Source of the DNA: Picosynechococcus sp. PCC 7117
Lineage (GTDB): Bacteria > Cyanobacteriota > Cyanobacteriia > Cyanobacteriales > MRBY01
Length of the DNA stretch: 64,000 nucleotides
Assembly: GCF_001693275.1 (NCBI RefSeq)
Contig: NZ_CP016477.1
Span: 2,604,001 to 2,668,000, forward strand
Direction: 5' to 3'
The position numbers and the translations under genes were made by a program. The notes beneath the pieces are model-generated. The model did no database searches, was not told the origin of the DNA, and saw nothing but the letters and a program-made list of their open reading frames with translations. This document shows, piece after piece, positions 34,899 to 59,105 of the stretch (its first letter is position 1; each line of letters begins with the position of its first letter).

Positions 34899-36821
34899 CT
34901 AAAACTGCTTAATACCATTTAGATCATAGGCATTTTTAATTTTTCCAATTTCTGTGCTAAGTCTGCCTATATGTCTACATACAATAGCATCGAAAAAAGC
35001 CGCAAAGTAACCGTGTTCAACAAATCGTTCACCATACTCTAGCTCAAAGTTTCCTGGCTGTTCTATAAACTTTCCAATGTGCTGTAAAACTTTTGTTTTC
35101 ATCATGAAAGGCCGAAAAGAAAAGTGAGGCCAAAAGCAGTTAGTTAGTGAACCTTTAGGATATTTTTGTAAAAAATAATTGACATTTATTGAGTTTCTGC
35201 CGCCAGGAACATATTCATGGATAATATGCCTGATTGGTTCTTTGTTTAAGATTCCTCCTACAATATGTTGTTCATTTAGTAATTCCGTATAGTTTCGATT
35301 AAACATGACTTGGGCAAGATTCTCTTGGCTTTCTAAGATTGAAATCGCTTTTTCTATATAAGGCATGGATACTATAAATTCCCAGTCATCTTCGAGGTGT
35401 AACCAATAGTTACTATCTATCAAGTCAAATAAAAGATTCATACTTTGGGCATGACCTTTTTGCTTTTCGTCCTTGAAGATAAATTCAAAAAAAGGATATA
35501 GCTTTTGCATTTCGTTTCTATTTTCAGGAGATGAATTATCATCAATGCATATGAATTTATTGATTTTATATAAATCTTGACAGCAGTTTAGAAACGAATT
35601 TATTGTTCTTTTAAATAAATCAAGTCTTTTACATGAAGTAACAGTCAAAGTTACTGTACTTGATTTATTAAATCGAATTGCTTGACTAAGACTATTAAGT
35701 AGAAGTGATTCAATAATATCTTCGGGATATTTTGTTTTGATTTCTGCAATAACATCAACACAAAATGAGGCATTTTTTTCAACTCGTTGCCTATCTTTTT
35801 CTGGCAATAAATCCCCCAGTAAAAGTTTCTGACAAAGATTAAATGATTGTTTTTTATCACCAGTCCAAAATGCAGCAATGGCCGCTTCATCCATTGCTCT
35901 ATAACGATAAGCCGAGTTTTCGAGAAACAAAGTATCATTTGGTTTCTTGATTTTTAGCGCTTGTTGAGCAAAGATATTTGCGAGGTGATATTTTTGTTTT
36001 TCTCGATAAAATCGAGCTAACTCTACTAATGGTTCTGCGCGACTGGGTCTAAACTGATAAGCAGCTAAATAAGCATTACATATTTTCTCTTCTGGCTCAT
36101 CTAGGCGCTCATTTAATTTTGCAATTTGATATAGCGAATACCAGATTTCTTCGTTCCATCCGCCAATTTCTATACGTTTTCTGTATGTTTCTCTAGATTT
36201 TAATAAATTATTATTGTCTCTATAACTTTGAGCCAGATAAAATAAACTCCTCGAATTATTAGGATTTTGTTTTAGATCTTCGAGCAATAAGTCAATATCT
36301 CTCTGGAATTTTCCAGCCCGGTTAAAACCTGATGCATGATCGATAAACCACAATTCCTTTAGTTGTTTTGGCAGACACGATATTGACAAATATTCATGGG
36401 TTACACCTATATATTGAGCTTCTAAATTGGCTTGTATTAGTCTTGTATTGTAATACCATAGTTGGTTTCTTTGTTGGATACTGTAAGCTGGCTCGCAGAG
36501 TCTAGACTTAAAATTTATATCGTCAACAACCAGCTCCATATCTGCATCAGCAAATAAAATATAATCTTGAATAACGTGAGAGTTTTTTGCCTTTTTTAGT
36601 GCTTCATTTCGTGCCTGTTCCCAATTAATAAAGGGGAATTCATGTATTGTTCCAGGTATTTTGTTACTGTTGAAAATATTTTGGATTTTTTGTATTGTAT
36701 CGTCGGTCGATCCTGTATCACAGATAACATATGAGTCAATCCAAGATAACATTGAATTTAAGCAGCGTTCAATGTTTTCTGATTCATTTTTAACGATCAT
36801 ATTTAAACATATTGTCGCCAT
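34899..36821 (-). CDS. Two-domain family 2 glycosyltransferase with TPR-like middle
   Basis: A 640-residue protein. Residues 1-110 are a GT-A domain (C-L-N-M-I-V-K-N-E-S-E-N-I, D-T-G-S-T-D-D-T, L-F-A-D-A-D-M-E-L with the D-x-D-type metal site). Residues ~170-360 are helical repeats of TPR style (S-L-F-Y-L-A-Q-S-Y-R, P-L-V-E-L-A-R-F-Y-R). Residues ~390-600 are a second GT-A-like domain (T-V-T-S-C-K-R-L-D-L-F, C-I-D-D-N-S-S, W-L-H-L-E-D-D-W-E-F). Two active sites may add two sugars. TPR-linked GT2 enzymes often act on proteins. It lies 126 bases downstream of the collagen-like gene, same strand, in AT-rich DNA without HIP1 sites. The acceptor is inferred, not shown. Confidence 0.85.
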   Translation of the reverse strand: MATICLNMIVKNESENIERCLNSMLSWIDSYVICDTGSTDDTIQKIQNIFNSNKIPGTIHEFPFINWEQARNEALKKAKNSHVIQDYILFADADMELVVDDINFKSRLCEPAYSIQQRNQLWYYNTRLIQANLEAQYIGVTHEYLSISCLPKQLKELWFIDHASGFNRAGKFQRDIDLLLEDLKQNPNNSRSLFYLAQSYRDNNNLLKSRETYRKRIEIGGWNEEIWYSLYQIAKLNERLDEPEEKICNAYLAAYQFRPSRAEPLVELARFYREKQKYHLANIFAQQALKIKKPNDTLFLENSAYRYRAMDEAAIAAFWTGDKKQSFNLCQKLLLGDLLPEKDRQRVEKNASFCVDVIAEIKTKYPEDIIESLLLNSLSQAIRFNKSSTVTLTVTSCKRLDLFKRTINSFLNCCQDLYKINKFICIDDNSSPENRNEMQKLYPFFEFIFKDEKQKGHAQSMNLLFDLIDSNYWLHLEDDWEFIVSMPYIEKAISILESQENLAQVMFNRNYTELLNEQHIVGGILNKEPIRHIIHEYVPGGRNSINVNYFLQKYPKGSLTNCFWPHFSFRPFMMKTKVLQHIGKFIEQPGNFELEYGERFVEHGYFAAFFDAIVCRHIGRLSTEIGKIKNAYDLNGIKQF

Positions 36822-36892
36822 CAGAAGCTCCTCAGAATACTTTTAGATATTTCTATATATTATTTCAAAGCTACCATTTGTCAATTATCAAA

Positions 36893-36922
36893 TAAAAAAG
36901 CCTGTCCTTCAAAGACAGACTT
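36893..36922 (-). terminator. Intrinsic terminator of the collagen-like gene
   Basis: Read on the minus strand, AAGTCTGTC-TTTGAAG-GACAGGCTT is a 9-bp stem (one G-T) followed by TTTTTATTTG. It separates the surface-protein gene from the glycosyltransferase gene. Confidence 0.82.
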
Positions 36923-36947
36923 GCTGAGTTCGTAAAAATTTAGACTT

Positions 36948-38264
36948 TTAATCGAATTCAAGTTGTAAGCCAGCACCAAAACCAAAGGTATTTCGATTGA
37001 TCCCCCAACCTGCCGTAACACTAAAATCAATAACTGTTTTTTCTAGCGCTTCGTCGGGATCTGTAAAACGAAAGATTGCGCCAGCCGCAACAGCAGACTC
37101 TCCTTCAAAATTACCAAATCCCATGCCGAAAGAATATTTCTTGCCATAACTTAAACCACGAGTAGCATTGATCATGGCATAACCCATGGCAATACCGGAA
37201 CGATTATCCAGGATTTCCTGTCTGTTCTGCTCAATTTGGTCTCTGTTGTTTTCAATCTTGCCATAGATGTTGTTAAGTGTTTCTTGATCGACTGCACCAG
37301 TCGCACCTGTAGGGCCAGTGGGGCCAGTATCGCCAGTGGTACCGGTCGCACCCGTAGCACCTTGAATACCCTGTTCACCTTGTTGACCTTGAGGGCCAGT
37401 GGGGCCAGTATCGCCAGTGGCACCGGTCGCACCCGTAGCACCTTGAATACCCTGTTCACCTTGTTGACCTTGAGGGCCAGTGGGGCCAGTATCGCCAGTG
37501 GCACCGGTCGCACCCGTAGCACCTTGAATACCCTGTTCACCTTGTTGACCCTGGGGGCCAGTGGGGCCAGTATCGCCAGTGGTACCGGTCGCACCCGTAG
37601 CACCTTGAATACCCTGTTCACCTTGTTGACCTTGAGGGCCAGTGGGGCCAGTATCGCCAGTGGCACCGGTCGCACCCGTAGCACCTTGAATACCCTGTTC
37701 ACCTTGTTGACCTTGAGGGCCAGTGGGGCCAGTATCGCCAGTGGCACCGGTCGCACCCGTAGCACCTTGAATACCCTGTTCACCTTGTTGACCTTGAGGG
37801 CCAGTGGGGCCAGTATCGCCAGTGGCACCGGTCGCACCCGTAGCACCTTGAATACCCTGTTCACCTTGTTGACCTTGAGGGCCAGTGGGGCCAGTATCGC
37901 CAGTGGCACCGGTCGCACCCGTAGCACCTTGAATACCCTGTTCACCTTGTTGACCTTGAGGGCCAGTGGGGCCAGTATCGCCAGTGGCACCGGTCGCACC
38001 CGTAGCACCATCGAGATCACAAAAAGCTTGTCCTTGAATATTCCCAGCTTGATTGGGTTGTTCAACTTGAGTTACTTCAAAAACCCCATCATTATCTGTA
38101 TCTGCGACATCGAAACACGTTGCTTCTTGACCTATTGTCTGTGCCATTATTGAGGATCTTTCTCGAAACGTTCCAGGAAGCAATGACTGTACAAAGTTTA
38201 AAACTACACCTGCAGAGGCATATAAAACAATTAATGAAAGCTTAGATTTTTTTGTAGACTGCAT
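36948..38264 (-). CDS. Collagen-like surface protein with YadA-type C-terminal anchor
   Basis: A 438-residue putative outer-membrane fibre. Residues 1-~40 are a long signal-like N-terminus. Residues 46-85 form a small head with two Cys (50, 82) and a D-T-D-N-D-G calcium-loop-like motif. Residues 86-325 are an unbroken Gly-X-Y run of 80 triplets: eight copies of a 27-residue unit (three GAT, then [18 protein letters not shown]) plus a partial ninth. Residues ~345-365 are three heptads with Ile at a and Asn at d (I-E-N-N, I-E-Q-N, I-L-D-N). The last ~75 residues are Gly/Phe-rich beta-strands (M-G-F-G-N-F, F-R-F-T-D-P, T-A-G-W-G-I-N) ending L-E-F-D. The layout matches trimeric autotransporters. 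Function (adhesion, sheath) is inferred. Confidence 0.82.
37290..38009 (-). repeat. Tandem 81-bp repeats encoding the collagen stalk
   Basis: Eight full 81-bp units (37362-38009) plus a partial unit encode the Gly-X-Y region. Copies are nearly identical at DNA level; differences are a GCA/GTA swap that turns one GAT into GTT (two units) and a CTTGAG/CTGGGG variant. Such arrays can change copy number by slippage or recombination in steps of 27 residues. Confidence 0.95.
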
Positions 38265-55861: not shown

Positions 55862-57037
55862 ATGAAAAAAATCAAAATTGGATTTATCATTTCTAAGTAC
55901 AAAGGACTAGCCACCAAATATAATTATGGGCTAGAACAAAACACTTATTTTCTGGTGCAGTTATTTCGCTCTATTCCAGAATTTGATGTTTCCTATGTCA
56001 TTTGTGAGGAAAATGTCCTGGAGGAATCTCTAAAAAATCGTGTGGAAGTTGGAGAAGATACGCCATTAGTTGAACAAAAAGATCTCAACCCAGATTTAGA
56101 TAGCCACTTAATCTATGATGTATTGATCACGACAGAGGCTTATCTTGCGCCTAACTTAATGAAAAAAATCAAGGAAAAGTACTCCACTAAAATTGTTGAA
56201 TTTCATGCTGGGATCATCATGTGGGGGTTGATTGAAGATGTTATTTACAATATTGAAAATCGTTTTAGCGGTGCACTTCTTCAACGTGAACCCGGCATGG
56301 TTGATGAAATCTGGATATCACCTCATCATGCCTATCACAAATCCTATGTCGAGACAGTCTCTAAATCTCGAGTGACGATTAGTCCTTATTTATATGAACC
56401 TTGGTTTTTGCAAAAATTAGAAGTTGATCGAATAACTATCAATCCTAATTTTAACCCACGCTATCAAAAGAATAATAGTAAGCATATTGGCATATTAGAA
56501 CCCAATATCAATCTTGTAAAAAATTTTGTGATTCCGACAACAATTGTAGAATCTTTATATTCCCAAGATTCGTCTATTTTTGGACGCAAGAATGCTCGAA
56601 TTTATTGCTCCAATCATATTATTGAACGTCAGGCTTTTAAGCATTTTTATAGCTATCTGAGTTGCCAAAAGATTTTATCTTCTGAAAAACGCTATCCAGT
56701 AATTGATATTTTTCACTCTGACTGCAGTCTAGTTATCAGCCACCAACATCTCTGTGAACTAAACTATCTTTATCTTGATGCTTTGTATTACGATATTCCT
56801 CTAGTCCATAACTCTCCTTTCTTGCAAGATTGCGGTTACTACTATCCGGAATTCGATGTCAAAAAAGGTGCACTAGCTCTTAAACAGGCCTTAACGGAGC
56901 ATGATCTGAAGTTAGACGAGTATAGAGATCAAGCTCAAAAGACTTTGTATCGGTACAGTACTAAGAATCCAGACAATATTCGTGGTTACCGAAGCATTAT
57001 CCAAAATTTGGTTAATGATCAACTTGAACAAGCATAA
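55862..57037 (+). CDS. DUF2827-like putative glycosyltransferase
   Basis: A 391-residue protein resembling DUF2827 proteins, which look like GT-B glycosyltransferases. Features are the N-terminal Rossmann start (K-I-G-F-I-I-S-K-Y-K-G-L), E-Q-N-T-Y-F-L-V-Q-L-F-R, Y-D-V-L-I-T-T-E-A-Y-L, the middle V-E-F-H-A-G-I-I-M-W, W-I-S-P-H-H and a C-terminal sugar-nucleotide-like part (D-A-L-Y-Y-D-I-P-L-V-H-N-S). It is AT-rich and lies directly upstream of the second surface protein, with 366 bases between. A role in modifying that protein is inferred from position. Confidence 0.65.
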   Translation: MKKIKIGFIISKYKGLATKYNYGLEQNTYFLVQLFRSIPEFDVSYVICEENVLEESLKNRVEVGEDTPLVEQKDLNPDLDSHLIYDVLITTEAYLAPNLMKKIKEKYSTKIVEFHAGIIMWGLIEDVIYNIENRFSGALLQREPGMVDEIWISPHHAYHKSYVETVSKSRVTISPYLYEPWFLQKLEVDRITINPNFNPRYQKNNSKHIGILEPNINLVKNFVIPTTIVESLYSQDSSIFGRKNARIYCSNHIIERQAFKHFYSYLSCQKILSSEKRYPVIDIFHSDCSLVISHQHLCELNYLYLDALYYDIPLVHNSPFLQDCGYYYPEFDVKKGALALKQALTEHDLKLDEYRDQAQKTLYRYSTKNPDNIRGYRSIIQNLVNDQLEQA

Positions 57038-57402: not shown

Positions 57403-58212
57403 ATGAAAATCAAAAATTATAGCCTCTTATTCAACAACATCCTTGGACTTGCTGTCCTCCTCAGTGGTTGGTCTTTTGCATCGCCTCGTGCAGCAGCACA
57501 AGCTTGTCCTGCCCAAACAATTGATGGTGTTACTGTAATTAGCTCTGTCTCTTTTCAGAACTTCCAATTGAACATCACTACTGCGGAAGTGGCAACTGAA
57601 GGTTCTACTCAAAATGCTGTTGATAATTTAGTTAGTTGCAACAATGCTAACTCCACCAACATCGTGAGTAACGCTAACGATATCGCGACCAACTCCACCA
57701 ACATTGTGAGCAACGCTAACGATATCGCGACCAACTCCACCAACATTGTGAGCAACGCTAACGATATTGCGACCAACTCCACCAACATTGTGAGCAACGC
57801 TAACGATATTGCGACCAACTCCACCAACATTGTGAGCAACGCTAACGATATCGCGACCAACTCCACCAACATTGTGAGCAACGCTAACGATATTGCGACC
57901 AACTCCACCAACATTGCGACCAACGCTGCTGACATTGCTGATCTTAAGCAAGATGTCAAGGAGCTCAGAGCTGGTGTAGCTAGTGTTATTGCAATGGATA
58001 ATGCAGAACCTGAACTACGTCCTGGCCACCGCTTTGGTATTGGTGTTGGTTTTGGTACTTTCCAAGACGAAACGGCCCTCGGTGCCGCCGCAAAATTCCT
58101 CTTCACTGATCCAAACAGTACCGGTACGGCTGTGACTTTTAAAGGTAGTGCCGGATGGGGATTGAATGAAGATACATTCTCAGCAGGTGCTGGTCTCGGT
58201 ATTAGTTTCTAA
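57403..58212 (+). CDS. YadA-type surface protein with Ile/Asn heptad stalk
   Basis: A 269-residue putative trimeric autotransporter-like protein. The signal peptide ends A-A-A-Q-A near residue 34. A short head with two Cys (35, 79) follows. Residues 87-170 are six exact copies of a 14-residue unit (I-V-S-N-A-N-D-I-A-T-N-S-T-N), two heptads with Ile at a and Asn at d. Heptads I-A-T-N, I-A-D-L and V-K-E-L continue to ~190. The last ~75 residues (G-F-G-T-F, F-L-F-T-D-P, S-A-G-W-G-L-N, ending I-S-F) match the C-terminus of the collagen-like protein and look like the YadA anchor. Function inferred: surface fibre or adhesin. Confidence 0.85.
   Translation: MKIKNYSLLFNNILGLAVLLSGWSFASPRAAAQACPAQTIDGVTVISSVSFQNFQLNITTAEVATEGSTQNAVDNLVSCNNANSTNIVSNANDIATNSTNIVSNANDIATNSTNIVSNANDIATNSTNIVSNANDIATNSTNIVSNANDIATNSTNIVSNANDIATNSTNIATNAADIADLKQDVKELRAGVASVIAMDNAEPELRPGHRFGIGVGFGTFQDETALGAAAKFLFTDPNSTGTAVTFKGSAGWGLNEDTFSAGAGLGISF
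57661..57912 (+). repeat. Six tandem 42-bp repeats encoding N@d heptads
   Basis: Six 42-bp units, nearly identical (GATATC/GATATT and ATC/ATT changes are silent), encode the 14-residue double heptad. Copy-number change would lengthen the stalk in steps of two heptads. Confidence 0.95.
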
Positions 58213-58391: not shown

Positions 58392-59105
58392 ATGATGAAT
58401 AAATATCAAAATCAAATTATCCAATTTAAAATCTTTGGAGAGCGCCACACTGCAACAAATGCGATCGCGAGATTACTGATACAAAACTTTGATTTAGATT
58501 ATCCTTACTATGATTTCCTCGGTTGGAAACATCGCAAAGCTCCTAATGCAGAGGAATTGCAAAATAAGCCCTTGGTTGCTCGCACATTATTTATTATCAC
58601 AGTACGTCATCCCTATGAATGGGCGGCAGCAATGCACCGTTGGCCGTACTGCGATTCTGATGCAGTCATTCACCGGTACAGTTTCAAGCGATTCTTAGAC
58701 TATCCCATTGAAGACTACGCAAGTATTTTAGATATGTGGAATCAAAAATATGCTAGCTATCAAAAGTTCATCGAACTGGTGCCCTATGTAAAAGTTATTC
58801 GATATGAAGATTTCAAAAAAGATCAATTAGCTGTTCTTCAGGATTTATATCAATGGATACCTCAACCAGAAAAGCCGGAAATTTTTAACCAATATATGCA
58901 TGGTGGCGTTGGTTGGAATTTAACTTTAACGAATCGCACTATTGAAAAACTTATCTATCAACATTGGCTACAATTTCCAGTGGATGCTAGTAATTCTAGT
59001 GCCCCTCAAAAACCTCTGGAACCAATTACTGATGACATTGCTAGCATGATTGATAAGCAGATAGATGATTCAGTTTTACGTTATTATTACCCGACGCTTG
59101 CTTAA
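58392..59105 (+). CDS. Sulfotransferase-like P-loop protein
   Basis: A 237-residue protein. The N-terminal I-F-G-E-R-H-T-A-T-N-A-I-A-R-L-L fits a 5'-PAPS loop of the sulfotransferase superfamily, and F-I-I-T-V-R-H-P-Y-E-W-A-A-A-M has the R-x-P of the 3'-phosphate-binding segment. V-I-R-Y-E-D-F follows. No membrane segment. ATG 58392 is chosen over TTG 58383. It lies after the terminator of the heptad surface protein, so it mirrors the GT2 gene at the other locus. Sulfation of a glycan on the fibre is an inference. Confidence 0.65.
   Translation: MMNKYQNQIIQFKIFGERHTATNAIARLLIQNFDLDYPYYDFLGWKHRKAPNAEELQNKPLVARTLFIITVRHPYEWAAAMHRWPYCDSDAVIHRYSFKRFLDYPIEDYASILDMWNQKYASYQKFIELVPYVKVIRYEDFKKDQLAVLQDLYQWIPQPEKPEIFNQYMHGGVGWNLTLTNRTIEKLIYQHWLQFPVDASNSSAPQKPLEPITDDIASMIDKQIDDSVLRYYYPTLA

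Follow-up and report, generated by a model that had tools for sequence, protein, structure and literature searches.

A small predicted trimeric autotransporter with an N@d stalk in Picosynechococcus and its linkage to DUF2827, a putative glycosyltransferase

The locus

The DNA analysed here (the window) is a stretch of 64,000 nucleotides from Picosynechococcus sp. PCC 7117. At 57403-58212 on the + strand it carries a single open reading frame of 269 residues, the gene of a trimeric autotransporter adhesin (TAA); these coordinates cover the entire gene, including signal peptide and membrane anchor, beyond the stalk alone. A search of this genome found the gene once. A DUF2827 gene lies upstream and a sulfotransferase-like gene downstream, and a second TAA gene is present elsewhere in the window. 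The features are as follows.

34899-36821 (-): family-2 glycosyltransferase with TPR-like repeats, adjoining the collagen-like TAA (Pfam Glycos_transf_2, 62.2 bits)
36948-38264 (-): second TAA of this genome, with a collagen-like (GXY) stalk on the same anchor type (Pfam Collagen, 133.4 bits; YadA_anchor, 26.4 bits, over cut-off)
55862-57037 (+): DUF2827 protein, predicted GT-B glycosyltransferase (Pfam PF10933, 226.6 bits; AlphaFold2 model; neighbourhood test)
57403-57504 (+): signal peptide, residues 1-34, read by eye, with cleavage estimated between ...ASPRAAAQA and C
57505-57660 (+): short N-terminal 'head', residues 35-86, with two Cys and without YadA_head repeats (Pfam)
57661-57912 (+): six exact 14-residue units IVSNANDIATNSTN, equal to 12 N@d heptads (tandem array and heptad count)
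57913-57933 (+): 13th N@d heptad, IATNAAD (heptad count)
57934-58005 (+): canonical coiled coil that keeps this register (IADLKQD VKELRAG VASVIAM) and runs into the anchor (heptad count; model)
58009-58209 (+): YadA-like outer-membrane anchor of four beta strands with a C-terminal Phe (PF03895; model; PDB fold matches)
58392-59105 (+): sulfotransferase-like protein (Sulfotransfer_3, 19.6 bits, below the cut-off of 27; distribution)

The repeat array encodes an uninterrupted run of N@d heptads

A tandem array with a period of 42 bp and 97% matches occupies positions 57649-57927 of the TAA gene. Its translation bears out the six exact 14-residue units that the earlier note had read; they lie at 57661-57912, and the only differences between their DNA copies are synonymous ones scattered over third positions. 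According to the same note, every heptad begins with Ile and has Asn as its fourth residue, and this holds for position a (Ile, 13/13) and position d (Asn, 13/13). Its count fell short by one, as 13 consecutive Ile-x-x-Asn heptads are found at residues 87-177 instead of 12, and the run continues into IADLKQD-VKELRAG-VASVIAM, a canonical coiled coil with Leu/Val at the core positions, with no break of register. In 5000 shuffles of the stalk region the longest Ile-x-x-Asn run was 4, against 13 in the actual protein. Because the number of heptads is odd and the units of a relative, genome G004, are mixed, the true period is the heptad and not the 14-mer.

The residue following the Asn (position e) is Ala in 7 heptads and Ser in 6, and Thr in this position (the NT motif) is absent from all 13. 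Thr is reportedly frequent after the Asn in N@d stalks, being common but not obligatory, and the longest run in Hartmann et al. 2009 reportedly comprised 19 consecutive heptads. Throughout the stalk, position a is occupied by Ile and position d by Asn, which is the N@d pattern that had been proposed for it, and its best PDB sequence matches are the TAA fragments 2wpr and 2wpq. Two long antisense open reading frames over the array, at 57609-58106 (-) and 57628-57951 (-), are by-products of the 42-bp period.

Anchor and predicted fold place the protein among the TAAs

A signal peptide, a passenger and a coiled-coil stalk running into an anchor are all present in the window TAA. Pfam detected no family in residues 1-86, YadA_head included, whereas the homologue in genome G005 has a YadA_head found at 90.2 bits. 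Residues 203-269 match YadA_anchor (PF03895) at 26.5 bits, over the cut-off of 22.7. A single-chain model covering residues 143-269, for which anchors of other bacteria and that of the window's second TAA were also used, predicts a helix (5-59) followed by four strands, the N@d part and the canonical coil forming one continuous helix. The quality of this model is modest (pLDDT 71, pTM 0.53) and the N@d part reaches a pLDDT of 51-66 only, a low value, as would be expected of a rod that depends on two partner chains. The four best PDB fold matches found with Foldseek were Hia (3emo, 2gr7 and 2gr8) and AtaA (9vnj), and no other PDB match fell within E 0.05. The protein also matched the Rv1893, talin and SMC families; these matches were discounted as artefacts of repeats or coiled coils.

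Since the anchor exceeds the Pfam cut-off and its predicted fold matches TAA anchors, the protein is assigned to the TAAs, the class to which the earlier note had pointed. Judged from its sequence and model, it belongs to type Vc secretion and combines an N@d stalk with a head of only about 50 residues, so that it is small and nearly headless; it would be a homotrimer. Both its motif and its family are known. Like the membrane anchors of Hia and AtaA, the window anchor is predicted to contribute a helix and four strands per chain; unlike them, it comes with a far smaller passenger, and its sequence is only 17-24% identical to theirs. For the N@d layers of SadA and other TAAs, PMC4786415 cites Hartmann et al. 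2009. The window TAA shares with these stalks the Asn at d and the Ile at a; it differs in having Ala or Ser after the Asn in place of the frequent Thr, and in being a cyanobacterial stalk with 13 such heptads in an unbroken row, for which anion binding would be assumed by analogy.

Stalk length varies widely within the genus

The YadA-type anchor is uncommon in cyanobacteria: YadA_anchor was found in 19 of 386 genomes, and five of the six genomes of the genus carry the anchor. N@d stalk length across the genus is 13 heptads in the window, 17 in G002 and 259 in G004. The TAA of G002 has 298 residues, and its 17 heptads are built from a different unit, IVSNATDIATNSTN. Array units are 97% identical within each of these two arrays (window species and G002) and 86% identical between the species, with the two ends of the gene 90-92% identical; the arrays have therefore been homogenised since the species split. 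The comparison agrees with the recent expansion that had been suggested from the near-identical 42-bp copies. The G005 TAA combines a YadA head with an N@d stalk whose sequence includes an unread stretch of 100 N.

In G004, 259 successive N@d heptads (97, 112 and 50) lie in three abutting frames (L046, 3469-9393), with Ile at a in 258/259, Asn at d in 259/259 and the unit types mixed. As deposited, this gene is split by two frameshifts. These are either real, in which case they disrupt a TAA stalk that would measure about 270 nm, or errors made in sequencing the repeat. The words 'minimal' and 'clean', which the earlier note used for the window stalk, suit this gene, but a relative with 259 such heptads is the more extreme case. 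Stalks of 13, 17 and ~259 heptads on the same anchor and motif make a natural test series for export, stability and fibre length. Near-identical DNA repeats also underlie the varying length of Periscope proteins, single-chain rods of the cell surface; the review of that class leaves out TAAs by definition (PMC9704523). The window TAA has such repeats and a varying rod length in common with them and differs in being a TAA.

Directly 3' of the TAA gene, G003 (L045, 9225-9764) and G004 (L046, 9392-9925) encode a small secreted-looking protein of ~178 residues, in which no Pfam family exceeded its cut-off. Near the TAA gene of G003 there is also a protein of 2428 residues (L045, 1590-8876) that combines TPR repeats and several glycosyltransferase-9-like parts with a group-1 glycosyltransferase and an FkbM methyltransferase. 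Proteins similar to its TPR-glycosyltransferase units lie near TAAs in B. ambifaria.

DUF2827 and sulfotransferase-like genes accompany the TAA in cyanobacteria

DUF2827 occurs in 3 of the 386 cyanobacterial genomes, each time beside an N@d TAA. The sulfotransferase-like protein is convincing in the same three, again beside the N@d TAA, and a fourth match is weak. The gene order of the window is kept in G002, and in G005 the order is TAA, two DUF2827 genes and the sulfotransferase-like gene. In G001, which has no TAA, the outer flanks are about 90 bases apart, and the TAA, DUF2827 and sulfotransferase-like genes are all missing between them. G003 and G004 possess the TAA and lack DUF2827, which is thus not needed to make such a TAA. 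A transposon-associated-like gene, recognised by eye, lies between Pbs27 and DUF2827 in G002 (L043, 11847-13211) and in that genome only.

The protein encoded at 58392-59105 does not reach the cut-off of the sulfotransferase family profile (Sulfotransfer_3, 19.6 versus 27 bits) and gives a weak PDB profile match to the CurM sulfotransferase (E 0.052); it may nevertheless be a distant relative of sulfotransferases. No relatives of it were found in a scan of viral contigs.

DUF2827 is linked to TAA genes outside cyanobacteria

A scan of genome contigs with the cyanobacterial DUF2827 alone as query found no relatives; with Burkholderia DUF2827 sequences added, 242 were retrieved, and the best 80 of the 242 by query similarity were taken as the loci for study. 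They belong to Burkholderia, Caballeronia, Paraburkholderia, Variovorax, Polaromonas and others, and many come from closely related species, so that they do not stand for 80 independent events. On Burkholderia plasmids, DUF2827 is found a few genes downstream of a YadA-like protein. Among the best 80, a YadA-type anchor was present at 57 loci, on the same strand in 57/57, with the TAA upstream of DUF2827 at 54 of the 57 and the two within 3 kb at 55 (median gap 1064 bp). As background, about 106 anchors were counted in 20 of these genomes, which together span about 131 Mb (~0.8 per Mb), and well under one chance match is therefore expected in 80 neighbourhoods. It is common for a single TAA to be followed by several copies of DUF2827.

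No YadA-type anchor was found at 23 of the 80 loci, at some of which the contig or the stretch examined ends. At least two of the 23, both from Caballeronia, contain giant ORFs of more than 2800 residues with ISSLSTG-type heptads downstream of DUF2827 (L138, 12566-21100; L151, 12641-21106). These repetitive ORFs extend past the end of the stretch and are probably large TAAs.

The N@d stalk was considered as the target of DUF2827 and rejected, the TAAs at the 80 loci being without long N@d runs; DUF2827 is for the same reason tied to TAAs and not to N@d. A TPR-glycosyltransferase, as seen in G003 and in B. ambifaria, was dropped as a second constant partner of the TAA, since only 4 of the 80 loci have one.

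Predicted function of the neighbours

The AlphaFold2 model of DUF2827, computed from 37 sequences, has a pLDDT of 84.6 and a pTM of 0.86, and predicts a two-domain GT-B fold. It matches GT4-type GT-B glycosyltransferases over almost its full length, with BshA first (Z 25.1, rmsd 3.8, 331 residues), then TarM (Z 23.7) and MshA (Z 23.2). A shared GT-B fold leaves the sugar and the acceptor unspecified; the linkage of the genes makes the TAA the likeliest acceptor. On balance we lean towards DUF2827 glycosylating the TAA. That the sulfotransferase-like protein sulfates the TAA or its glycan is a weaker proposal, which we think less likely than not.

The two neighbours might instead act on a surface polysaccharide, the TAA adjoining them because surface genes cluster or because it binds that polysaccharide. 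GT4-type GT-B enzymes do mostly target small molecules, lipids or glycans, and the closest folds are BshA, MshA and TarM, with protein glycosyltransferases like SdgB and OGT ranking lower. However, the neighbour is specifically a TAA at 57 of the best 80 loci, on the same strand and at a median of 1.06 kb, one TAA is often followed by several DUF2827 copies, and in cyanobacteria the linkage persists despite the altered gene order in G005. We consider action on a polysaccharide rather unlikely, while taking it seriously.

Glycosylation of the TAA by DUF2827 would have a functional parallel in the cytoplasmic NGT/HMW1C enzymes, which glycosylate TAAs (PMC5303269). Like them, DUF2827 would be a putative cytoplasmic glycosyltransferase serving an autotransporter adhesin; unlike them, it belongs to a different family with a GT4-like fold, and its gene shows a linkage with that of the TAA which is absent for ngt of A. 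pleuropneumoniae. For the conserved pairing of TAA and DUF2827 with a predicted glycosyltransferase fold we found no precedent, and in a full-text search of an open-access library a single paper mentioned DUF2827. Neighbourhood and predicted fold both indicate TAA glycosylation and so provide a testable function for DUF2827, a larger gain than the stalk itself. A tentative generalization is that DUF2827 proteins may be a hitherto unrecognised family of dedicated TAA protein glycosyltransferases in proteobacteria and in one cyanobacterial genus, where the sulfotransferase would join them in coating an N@d rod with sulfated glycan.

A model for the window TAA

Taken as a whole, the locus quite probably encodes a small type Vc N@d autotransporter modified by the DUF2827 glycosyltransferase and the sulfotransferase-like neighbour. 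The cytoplasmic GT-B enzyme would modify the TAA before export, most likely on outward Ser/Thr, and the sulfotransferase-like protein would add a further modification. Ser/Thr at outward positions are likelier acceptors than the core Asn because the latter should face inward; N-linked glycosylation of these Asn (NST sequons) was for this reason judged unlikely. The TAA would pass the inner membrane by means of its signal peptide, and three copies would form a 12-stranded outer-membrane anchor, displaying the passenger as a short trimeric coiled-coil rod of ~17 nm (residues 87-200, at 0.148 nm per residue). In the core of this rod, Ile (a) would alternate with Asn (d), and, if SadA is a guide, these polar layers of Asn may fold around bound anions and leave the chain loose enough for export. 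With hardly any head present, the working surface would be either the stalk or the small tip with its Cys residues, and stalk length would change by recombination between the 42-bp repeats. Trimerisation, anion binding and an adhesive role are what we infer for this protein.

Two other structures for the stalk were weighed against the coiled coil. The 14-residue repeats could form a left-handed parallel beta-roll of the YadA head or ice-binding type, as the unit length is that of YadA head repeats, an ice-binding beta-roll is matched weakly (PDB 3ult, E 0.074; LbR_Ice_bind, E 0.84) and BpaC shows that hydrophilic cores can occur in TAA beta-rolls (PMC9543794). Against it stand the strict 7-residue sub-period with an odd number of heptads (13), the register shared with the Leu/Val coiled coil, the free mixing of heptad types in relatives, the missing YadA_head match where the real head of the G005 homologue scores 90.2 bits, and the helix of the predicted model; a beta-roll is very improbable. 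Scarcely to be expected either is a disordered Asn/Ser/Thr-rich spacer in place of a folded rod: the N@d stretches are polar and their single-chain pLDDT is 51-66, but a spacer would not conserve the a/d pattern in 13/13 heptads here and in 258/259 (Ile) and 259/259 (Asn) in G004, and known N@d stalks are folded (PMC4786415).

A second, collagen-like TAA in the window

The second TAA contains 80 GXY triplets in one long block, encoded by 81-bp repeats that are 98% alike. The adjoining GT2-TPR protein (34899-36821) has no full-length homologue among the five other genomes of the genus. In G001 and G002, ~0.2-0.4 kb joins the flanks in place of the 3.9-kb pair (window 34899-38264). As both genes are absent at the same site in these genomes, the collagen-like TAA and the GT2-TPR gene have been gained or lost together. 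TAAs with collagen-like repeats are known as VtaA in Haemophilus parasuis (PMC6755704). The second TAA of the window resembles them in its repeats, and differs in having one long GXY block, set on a short stalk, and an adjoining GT2-TPR gene.
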